A stretch of DNA of 64,000 nt from NCBI GenBank assembly GCA_006503475.1, contig RSEH01000002.1:215836-279835 (forward strand), given 5' to 3'. How positions within the stretch are numbered: the stretch's first letter is position 1; every line of letters begins with the position of its first letter. The notes beneath the pieces were generated by a model that was given only the letters and a program-made list of their open reading frames with translations, did no database searches and was not told where the DNA came from. This stretch comes from Stentor roeselii. Its lineage: Eukaryota > Ciliophora > Heterotrichea > Heterotrichida > Stentoridae. The position numbers and the translations under genes were made by a program. Positions 23,324 through 26,405 of this stretch are shown here, piece by piece.

Positions 23324-23776
23324 TTAACTCAAATTTTTCAGCTTATTTATAAGGAACTTGCCTGGAGATACTAAAAATCTTTTCGCTTTTGGCAAGATTT
23401 GACCTGCCTTTAAACCAAATCTGGAAATATTTTCACTTTTTTCTTGATTCATCAGTGATGGGCTCTGATTCGCACTTCTAAATAATTTTTTCGCTTTAGG
23501 TGTTAAATGAACATCGATGATCTTCTTAACCTCATCTTGAATTTCCTCTTTTTTGTTAATAAATCTGTTTTTAAAACCCTTCATCGTAAAATTTTTTTTT
23601 TCATTCTTCTCTAAATTTTCAAAAGTCGCTGTCAACATCTGATTAGCAGCTAAAAGTTCATCTTTTTCCTCCTCCAGCGTTTCTAACAAATACTGCAAAT
23701 CCTCAACAGCGAATTCAATTCTCTCTACATTTTGTTGAAGTTCATGAATACTAAGAGTTTCAAGTTGATTTTTCAT
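23324..23776 (-). CDS. small coiled-coil protein, 2 bases downstream of the TBC gene
   Basis: This is a 150-residue protein. Residues 8-65 form a coiled coil (IHELQQNVERIEFAVEDLQY...), and the rest is basic and probably disordered. Its ATG comes just 2 bases after the TAA of the F-BAR/TBC gene (TAA-AT-ATG on the minus strand) and is in a different frame, so it is not simple readthrough. No 15- or 16-base GT...AG intron joins the two. It could be a separate gene with its start signal (TATAAATATG) inside the upstream gene's end, or the C-terminus of the TBC protein if the junction contains a frameshift. Confidence 0.55.
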   Translation of the reverse strand: MKNQLETLSIHELQQNVERIEFAVEDLQYLLETLEEEKDELLAANQMLTATFENLEKNEKKNFTMKGFKNRFINKKEEIQDEVKKIIDVHLTPKAKKLFRSANQSPSLMNQEKSENISRFGLKAGQILPKAKRFLVSPGKFLINKLKNLS

Positions 23777-23778
23777 AT

Positions 23779-26394
23779 TTATACTACTTCAACACAGTTC
23801 TTAAGCCTTTCGTATTCTTTTTTGAGTTGGTTGATAAGTCGATTGGTGATTTTTACCTTCAACGCGTCATTCACAAGGTCTTCAGTGAAGATTTCTTTGG
23901 CAGCGACATGAGGAGCAGTGAGGATCATCATGATTTCTTCGAATCTTTTAAGACTAATCCAAGGCAAGATTCTTTTAAGGATGACGACAGCGACTCGAAA
24001 AATGATTTTCCAGCCAGTCTGTTTAAATCTTACAAAAATAAAAAAATCCCAAATTCTCAGAAGTAAATCTTGCTTATTCGGTAACTGACTAGCGAAAAGC
24101 GTGATGAACCAAGTGACGCAGTAATTTGTTGAAACAATATTCTCAGCGTTTAACACTTGTCGAACTTCAGGAACATGAAGGGTAACAACTCGATCCAATA
24201 TAAAAAAAAAGACCTTCAACTGGTTCATGTCCTGCCCATAAAGTTGCTGCATTTGATGAAAACGAATCAATTCATCTAAAGACCAGAAAACTTCTTCATT
24301 ATCTCCTAAAACATGTGCTAAAGTACTTGCCAGGTAATGCATGCCTTGACAATATCCTACTTTCGGCTTGTAAAATGCGAAAACTCTTAAAACTTCTTCT
24401 ATAAACTTGCTATCCACTGCTGAATTTTGGTTAAAAGACCTGAAAATATCCATTCGAATCACTTCGGCCACGTCTTTTATCATCTGAGGATTTTTGCATA
24501 ACTGGTTTTTTAAGTCTTCGAATTTAACCTGCGACTTTTTAAATAAAGCTGATTTCCAAGCAAGTCTTCTAAATTTCAAGTTTTTGTAAAGAAGAAGAGA
24601 TTTTTTGTAGTAATGAGGAGAAAGGATCGTGTTCCATGTTTTACAAACTTGCAAAAGTTCTGAAGCTTCTGAGATTGGAAGGTAGTCGAAAGATAGTCCG
24701 AGATAGAGAAAAAGACCCCATTTTGAACGACTTTTTGCATTTACTCGAAGAGACTTGTGAATTGTTTGTAAAGGTGGAGGAGTTGTTTGGATTGAGTTCA
24801 GCTCGATTAGAAGGGAAATCACGTTTTCGGGCTTAAGCTTGTGTCGCTTTGAACAGGTTAAGATTACTTCGCTTGCGACTTGAATTGGAGTTCCCAGGTT
24901 TGTCATGTGGAAGTTGAAATGGGAGAGGATTGAACTTGTAATGCTGTTTTTTGAGTTTTTATTTGGCTTTTGAGCGGTTTTTCCAAGTTTTTTCATTCGT
25001 TGTTGAGTCTTTTTGAATAAAGCTTTTTCTGTGCTGAGTTTTCGAAGAACTGCGAAGTTTATGGTCGATGTCCAGCTTTTTGAACTTTTGAAGATTGACT
25101 GGGTTGATAGGAATTTGGACAGGTAGATTCTTTTTGAGTCGCAGGTGTAGAATTGATGGGAAAAGTGAACGATTTTATAAAATATTTCGACGTTAAATTG
25201 CTTATCGTCCATCATTATTGAAGTTATTGTTGCGATTAGGCTTGCTAAGTTGTTCATATTGATAGGCTCGAGATATCCGATATGTTTCCTAGTTTCCAGC
25301 ACATCCATAAATGTTTCCCAATGACTAGAGTCCATGATTTTCATCGAAAAATCACAAAGTAACTCACTTTCTAAAGTATCAGTAGTCGAGTCATCTAAAA
25401 CAGACCCCTTGCTAGAAGAATGACTATCAGAAGACCCTTTATTAGTGGGTATTATAGCATAAACCAGAGTTTTAATCAAAGCCAAGGAAGAATCAAGCGG
25501 TTTATACCCCGTTTCACTCGAAATGAAATTTTCATTAAATTTCATCACATTTTTCCCTTCACTCTTCATATTTTTCTTCCACTTATCATAAGAAACCCAG
25601 TTTTCCTGTTCAAGTCCTTCATTTTGCAGAAGAAATTCAAGTGAAACAGGAAGATCCTCCGCTCCAATAACAGTAAGATTATGACTAATACTTTCAACAA
25701 AGTCATTCAACAACAAAAGTTCTTTTTTTTCCACCAAAGTATATTTTTCGACACATCTTCTCAGAAACTGAACTCGAGACTCTTCAAGTTCTTTCAAAAA
25801 CCTAACAGCTTGTTTTTTCATAATTTCATATTCACCCCAAAGTTCCTTTTCACGAGCCATGGCAGACAAGTACTCTTCCGAGGCTTTCATCATCTGAGCC
25901 TTCATCACTTCAACATTTTTATTAGCAAGGGCCAGTCTCGACTCATCATCTTCAATGCTTGCCATTTGTCCAGCTTTTTCAGCTCTTAAAGATGAAAGAA
26001 AATAGTTTTGCTTTAACATTTCAAGTGAAATTCTTGATTCTTTGATTTCTTCAGTGCAGACTTGTATTGAGTTCAACATTTGACTGTACCCGTTTTTGTA
26101 ACTTTCGACGAAGTCTGATAATGGTTCAATGATCTGTGAGTCGATGCAGCTGTTTAGACCTTACTCGGCGATGTCGGCATGTAATATTGACTTGTTTTTG
26201 ATGAAAAGCAGGAACTTCTCCAGACTTTTCATCAAAGTCGAATTTTTCTCTTTCGGGTTTACAGAAGGAATAAACTCGCTGAGTTTCTGAGAGGTTTCTT
26301 CGTTTATTATTTTTAAGAACTTGAAGCAACTCAGCAAGGTGGAAAGCGTGTCGTAGTTGTCTTCGTGAAATAATGAAGCTGTTGGAAAGGACAT
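23779..26394 (-). CDS. F-BAR/F-box-like/TBC RabGAP protein (one 15-base intron)
   Basis: The exons are 26394-26165 and 26149-23779, giving 866 residues. Residues 1 to about 265 look like an F-BAR (FCH) domain: an aromatic start, a long helical antiparallel coiled-coil, and the early basic/acidic helix pattern. About 560-600 is F-box-like (YLPISEASELLQVCKTWNTI). About 600-850 is a TBC domain with both catalytic fingers: the arginine finger in RMDIFRSF (about 641) and the glutamine finger in GYCQGM (about 676). TBC proteins accelerate GTP hydrolysis on Rabs, and F-BAR domains bend or sense membrane. I infer a Rab regulator recruited to curved membrane. The middle (about 270-550) is helical and unrecognised. 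Confidence is high for TBC, moderate for F-BAR and low for F-box. The start is the ATG at 26394; upstream Met codons are absent. Confidence 0.82.
26150..26164 (-). other. 15-base intron in the F-BAR/TBC gene
   Basis: On the minus strand this is GTAAGGTCTAAACAG, holding an in-frame TAA. Removing it joins ...ILHADIA to DCIDSQIIEPLSDF within the F-BAR helix region. Confidence 0.9.
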
Positions 26395-26405
26395 GATTAT
26401 AAAGA
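26395..26405. promoter_or_regulatory. 11-base divergent start-to-start gap
   Basis: GATTATAAAGA is all that lies between the ATG of the F-BAR/TBC gene (-) and that of the small unknown gene (+). It contains TATAAA for the plus strand. Confidence 0.5.

Follow-up and report, generated by a model that had tools for sequence, protein, structure and literature searches.

Closest described systems

TBC domains are characterised by two finger motifs, an arginine finger (IxxDxxR) and a glutamine finger (YxQ). Both fingers are present in RABGAP1/RABGAP1L, USP6NL and TBC1D1/4, as in the protein analysed here, and the partner domains of those RabGAPs are unlike those described below. The F-BAR proteins Imp2/Cdc15, FBP17/CIP4, PACSIN, PSTPIP1 and GAS7 bear SH3, RhoGAP or kinase domains and are not known to carry TBC. 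The SBF2 domain (PF12335) occurs in KIAA0513 and in MTMR5/13, where it sits in a RabGEF; to our knowledge, the role of this domain is poorly known.

Two ArfGEF subfamilies, TBS (TBC-Sec7) and FBS (F-box/Sec7), are fused GTPase regulators, like the protein studied here, and TBS, which joins TBC to another trafficking module, is reported to be unique to alveolates (PMC553965). Unlike them, our protein gave no Pfam match to the Sec7 domain, and F-BAR and SBF2 are without mention in the available part of that account (PMC553965). In yeast, the RabGAPs Gyp5/Gyl1 are described as acting in exocytosis with the BAR-domain protein Rvs167; these are separate, SH3-linked proteins with an N-BAR domain, whereas the present case concerns one polypeptide with an F-BAR domain (PMC6997364). 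Among openly licensed PMC papers, we found no description of a combined F-BAR and TBC RabGAP (a weak absence, given this scope), no paper on F-box plus TBC in ciliates or on RabGAPs of Tetrahymena, and none pairing an SBF2 domain with an F-BAR. The available portions of PMC8923023 and PMC11101121 contain no F-BAR or F-box RabGAP, and the term "f-box" occurs 0 times in both. The enzyme itself is of a known kind, while the set of domains joined to it appears to be new.

A predicted four-part RabGAP and its paralogs

The window, i.e. the whole 64,000-nt stretch of Stentor roeselii DNA analysed here, carries on its minus strand a gene with the following features:

23779..26394, minus strand: whole gene, from start to stop codon (867 codons spliced, including the stop; relatives in the same genome)
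26165..26394, minus strand: exon 1 (read from the sequence)
26150..26164, minus strand: 15-nt intron, GT..AG, with an A at position 10 (same place and length in paralog C93)
23779..26149, minus strand: exon 2, including the stop codon
25675..26358, minus strand: F-BAR domain (P0001 residues 13-240, with approximate borders; family profile, held-out profile, single-sequence fold and Foldseek)
24790..25377, minus strand: SBF2-like domain (about residues 340-535; profile-profile 6.7e-18, local profile 1.7e-11 against decoys)
24595..24720, minus strand: F-box-like segment (residues 559-600; Pfam stretch 569-592)
23971..24573, minus strand: TBC RabGAP domain (residues 608-808 by PF00566; PF23436 extends to 863)
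24439..24459, minus strand: arginine finger motif IRMDIFR (D649 and R652 in 8/8 paralogs)
24346..24357, minus strand: glutamine finger motif GYCQ (Y681 and Q683 in 8/8 paralogs)

The initial annotation had proposed the order F-BAR, F-box-like, TBC, which is largely right but incomplete, as there is a middle, SBF2-like domain, absent from that annotation, between the F-BAR and the F-box-like segment. By sequence comparison, the four-domain architecture, its occurrence in eight paralogs of one genome and the conserved fingers are established. On balance, we favour the reading that the gene encodes a dimeric four-part RabGAP positioned by its F-BAR-SBF2 half. The F-BAR half would form a homodimer and, together with the SBF2-like domain, would anchor the protein to certain membranes or to partner proteins; there, the TBC half would switch a Rab off by contributing an arginine and a glutamine; and the F-box-like segment may have been inherited from an older F-box-TBC core as an adaptor or linker, its Skp1 binding probably weakened or absent.

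The TBC domain with both fingers was annotated correctly from the outset: the window protein matches Pfam RabGAP-TBC with an E-value of 4.4e-39 (134.8 bits against a cut-off of 25.2), and D649, R652, Y681 and Q683 (P0001 numbering) are identical in all eight family members. Searched alone against the PDB, the protein gave 13 matches at E≤1, all of them TBC proteins and none F-BAR; with the family profile, the best solved TBC relatives are RABGAP1L (1.5e-38) and RABGAP1. The domain looks catalytically competent, and the proposed Rab inactivation is well supported at the sequence level. The Ras family model, which covers Rabs, gave at least 150 matches in the genome and also matches in 12 of 14 prokaryote controls, so that single rows are no proof of a Rab. 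Clusters of Ras-family matches were seen at C119:58721-62705 and C292:4143-7071; the latter, which may consist of Rabs beside a RabGAP, lies some 2 kb away from the TBC match at C292:1576-2091.

The genome searched was the 44.4-Mb assembly of 522 contigs that contains the window. For C93, C248 and C254 the match covered most of the window protein; C302, C86 and C153 were each matched as two pieces sharing a frame, and the match to C257 was confined to residues 410-864. C257 counts as a member because its whole open frame aligns and because the profile of stand-alone F-BARs described below reaches it at 1.4e-6. The eight fused proteins can be aligned along their whole length, their identity to the window protein being 19-34%. 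The TBC model gave 92 genomic matches, some of which are fragments of a single gene, and 43 domains were taken from them for a tree; C516 was dropped for length, leaving 42 rows. In this tree a branch (98/98) sets the eight fused proteins apart from all other rows, and the same clade was obtained (99/97) with 40 rows, leaving out C27 (flagged as long) and C338 (our choice). The four-part family probably arose once, through the joining of an F-BAR-SBF2 gene to an F-box-TBC gene, and was then duplicated. That a natural F-BAR/RabGAP fusion has been kept in eight copies suggests that coupling the two is useful, and with the paralogs one could ask whether Rab inactivation is gated by the assembly of the F-BAR or by the shape of the membrane. 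Two other genes of the tree, L017 (C184) and L024 (C92), carry RCC1-like repeats (by eye) followed by TBC and are sisters (100/100).

The SBF2-like domain and stand-alone F-BAR-SBF2 proteins

The middle domain presumably resembles KIAA0513 and MTMR5/13, which led to SBF2. Pfam SBF2 matched one of the eight middle segments (0.057), not that of the window protein, and was absent at E≤10 among the matches listed in the whole-protein scan of the family. Other Pfam candidates for the middle segments, namely Imm30 (0.0039, window protein), VWA (0.028) and others, each matched one of eight weakly, and the profile matches of this domain to RPAP3 (0.034) and to interaptin and RidL (from 0.41) in the PDB were taken as chance.

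The genome search with SBF2 (PF12335) gave seven places, all over the cut-off, four of which (C52, C81, C10 and C163) share frames with FCH matches that are likewise over the cut-off. Stand-alone F-BAR-SBF2 genes, with open frames of about 470-540 residues, were found on C52, C81, C10, C246, C163, C476, C521 (two) and partly on C83 (L061-L065, L067, L071-L077). Eight of the encoded proteins were aligned, the ninth (C83) being left out because its frame ends early. At E≤1, Pfam recognised SBF2 in seven and FCH in six of these eight, and their profile matched F-BAR structures of the PDB from 2.3e-19. In a profile-profile comparison, the fused family and the eight stand-alone proteins share 491 co-linear columns (E = 3.3e-34); for the middle segment of the fused family alone against the stand-alone SBF2 half, the E-value is 6.7e-18. 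The stand-alone SBF2 profile reaches the window protein (1.7e-11) and six of the seven other fused proteins (E-values for a set of 1000), missing C257 (E = 2.5); the best decoy, among 300 shuffles and 63 decoy ORFs, scored 0.23. Through the stand-alone proteins, the middle domain is thus linked by homology to the SBF2 domain of PF12335 proteins. Unlike in MTMR5/13, it is placed in a RabGAP, and there was no sign here of a DENN, phosphatase or PH domain. The stand-alone F-BAR-SBF2 proteins, which provide a context for the SBF2 domain, are a likely source of the fused N-terminal half.

Charge of the F-BAR region and membrane binding

Summed over the F-BAR region, the net charge of the window protein is -5; among the eight fused proteins it ranges from -7 to +4 (negative in six of them), compared with +2 to +10 in the eight stand-alone proteins (Mann-Whitney p = 0.0011, an optimistic value, as the rows are related). 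The fused F-BARs are therefore mostly net acidic, which tends to speak against electrostatic membrane binding, and it is because of this difference from the stand-alone proteins that a dimeric, positioned RabGAP is preferred. Membrane sensing by the F-BAR of the window protein is possible.

The same shift in charge is what one would expect if the F-BAR half were now only a scaffold for dimerisation and protein binding, with membrane binding and sensing lost and partners placing the RabGAP. We regard this as possible and as the first of the alternatives, yet unlikely, for net charge is a crude proxy and a local basic face could persist (the AlphaFold2 models are of low quality). Slightly more doubtful is an arrangement in which F-BAR dimers would gather on curved membrane, so that TBC reaches and inactivates Rabs only there, the SBF2-like and F-box-like parts would add partner choice and turnover, and the eight variants would serve different Rab compartments.

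The F-box-like segment

On the whole window protein, Pfam F-box-like scored 0.079 (13.2 bits against a cut-off of 24.3), and on the segment alone 0.0021 (18.3 bits), again below the cut-off. In the genome, this model gave 62 matches at E≤1, of which four lie no more than 400 nt upstream of a same-strand TBC match, against 0.026 expected (a Poisson estimate, with the 400-nt limit set after viewing the list). These four (window, 0.225; C248, 0.835; C339, 0.17; C219, 0.225) are all below the cut-off, and two belong to the fused family. At E≤1 the model also matches in three of 14 prokaryote controls, for which chance is the likely reason.

Besides this first line of support, two more come from profiles of the segment. 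When the segments of the eight family members were trimmed to the surroundings of the Pfam stretch, their profile found six PDB matches at E≤10, five of them F-box and none significant alone. With seven segments of further TBC genes added, which were picked by eye and so lean towards the pattern, 16 of 17 matches were F-box proteins, the best at 1.6e-4; ten of these 16 rows are named F-box, C85627 was assigned since its entry includes named FBXW proteins, and Cdc4 and four KDM2A/KDM2B rows we take to be F-box proteins. Pfam recognised F-box in eight of the 15 segments (best 3.1e-6) and F-box-like also in eight, the rest being placed by alignment. The segment first proposed from the window sequence thus stands by way of its relatives (best 1.6e-4; 8/15), while the single protein stays below the Pfam cut-off.

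The 15 genes with an F-box-like segment and TBC form one side of a branch in the TBC trees (90/73 with 42 rows, 92/82 with 40 rows), and their shared branch is suggestive but not firm. Since F-box-like segments precede TBC in 15 related genes, F-box plus TBC may be the older core. Four genes, L046 (C149), L056 (C92), L060 (C365) and L082 (C219), encode an N-terminal region, a likely coiled coil (by eye), an F-box-like segment and TBC. Inspection by eye had suggested a PH domain in C219, C149, C365 and C92, but Pfam gave no match to one at E≤1.

Binding of Skp1 by an F-box needs an LP motif at the usual place. None of the 15 segments has LP at the usual Skp1-contact spacing (judged by eye); the letters occur elsewhere in five, namely in C254, C302 and C257, and also in the window protein and C248, where they immediately follow the conserved leucine region. 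An F-box that works and binds Skp1, making the protein either an SCF adaptor for Rab-linked substrates or a target of SCF turnover, would agree with the homology seen through the relatives and with the six Skp1 matches in the genome, and FBS, in which a putative F-box accompanies Sec7, is reported as a precedent on a trafficking GTPase regulator (PMC553965). We nevertheless consider it improbable, given the missing or misplaced LP and a Pfam match in the window protein that spans only profile positions 13-36 or 13-38 of 47. SCF-dependent turnover of the window protein is weakly supported and SCF coupling unlikely, and under the preferred reading of a dimeric, positioned RabGAP the segment would be retained as an adaptor or linker.

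Identity of the F-BAR domain

At Pfam cut-offs, the single window protein has neither an F-BAR nor an F-box match, a picture that changes once the paralogs are used. When the window protein was scanned by itself, no Pfam FCH row appeared at E≤10. Across the family, FCH was found in three of eight members (best 0.016) and GMIP-like_FCH in two (best 0.0084); in the genome search none of these was over the cut-off, and the two that matched there sit below it. The eight-member profile, searched against the PDB, gave 37 rows with E below 1e-4, comprising 24 F-BAR and 13 TBC rows. The F-BAR rows align within profile positions 4-315, the best at 5.1e-14 (Imp2, 5e-14; FBP17, 2e-13).

A held-out profile, built from six paralogs without the window protein and C93, reaches the N-terminus of the window protein at 1.4e-18, compared with 0.47 for the best decoy (300 shuffles, 63 decoy ORFs and the reversed window protein). 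Of the fused proteins, the F-BAR profile of the stand-alone F-BAR-SBF2 proteins reaches six out of eight (E-values between 6.4e-17 and 1.4e-6; best decoy 0.37), missing the window protein and C93. For both profiles, E-values of fused proteins and decoys were computed for a set of 1000. By these comparisons, the most diverged pair for F-BAR consists of the window protein and C93 and, because the stand-alone profile misses the former, the link of the window protein to F-BAR runs through its paralogs. The F-BAR initially proposed is accordingly upheld by the paralog profiles (5.1e-14; held-out 1.4e-18) and not by Pfam on the single protein.

The single-sequence AlphaFold2 model of residues 1-273 has a mean pLDDT of 59 and contains long helices at 89-147 and 151-217, with pLDDT >90 mid-helix. 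In a Foldseek search with this weak model, 17 of the 20 best PDB matches were F-BAR, several being chains of one protein; the best was the FBP17 F-BAR (E = 5.5e-3), with none at E≤0.001, TM-scores ≤0.46 and large rmsd. A model of the whole protein (pLDDT 41) was set aside. The helical module at the family's N-terminus can be aligned, for most of its length, with the F-BAR domains of Imp2/Cdc15, FBP17/CIP4, PACSIN, PSTPIP1 and GAS7, from which the window F-BAR differs in its net acidic charge and strong divergence.

It is very improbable that the N-terminal match reflects a generic coiled coil, with the F-BAR label an artefact of composition. The long-helical character of the region, the missing FCH match of the single protein and the failure of the stand-alone F-BAR profile to reach it would all suit such an origin, but every family-profile match there below 1e-4 is an F-BAR structure (24/24), shuffles and decoys score 0.37 at best with either F-BAR profile, and the Foldseek result, though weak, again favours F-BAR (17 of the top 20). 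As an unmatched control, a second coiled-coil protein of the window was searched as a single sequence and gave one PDB match at E≤10, which is not an F-BAR.

Gene structure and surroundings

The two-exon reading and the coordinates given in the initial annotation proved right, yielding an 867-codon CDS once the 15-nt intron is removed. In Stentor coeruleus, 92.81% of introns are reported to be 15 nt long, and a branch-point A at position 10 was recorded in 8005 introns (90.90% of all) (PMC9505925); the size of the window intron and its position-10 A fit this pattern. Paralog C93 has a 15-nt intron at the place aligned to it. The spliced CDS contains 13 TGG codons, no in-frame TGA or TAG and a single TAA, which is the stop; the 13 TGG and the lack of in-frame TGA/TAG mean that the standard genetic code fits. 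As judged from these sequence features, the RabGAP gene is confirmed as real. A false joining of two adjacent genes, or a pseudogene, is hardly tenable even with ORFs extremely near on both sides, as six of the seven paralogs have the entire domain order in one open frame and C93 has it in two exons, and the sole premature in-frame stop sits inside the typical 15-nt intron common with C93.

Upstream, the RabGAP gene has a divergent neighbour on the plus strand, an ORF whose ATG (26406) lies only 11 nt (26395-26405) from the RabGAP start codon and which matches PTH2 peptidyl-tRNA hydrolase (23.1 bits against a cut-off of 23). Downstream, an ORF of 150 residues on the same strand (23324-23776, minus strand) begins 2 nt past the RabGAP stop; it gave no Pfam match at E≤0.01, and no 15- or 16-nt intron joining it to the RabGAP gene was seen by eye. 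Towards the far part of the window (about 28000-64000), the GC content per 2 kb declines: it is 0.35-0.40 in the first 20 kb and 0.23-0.33 after 32 kb.
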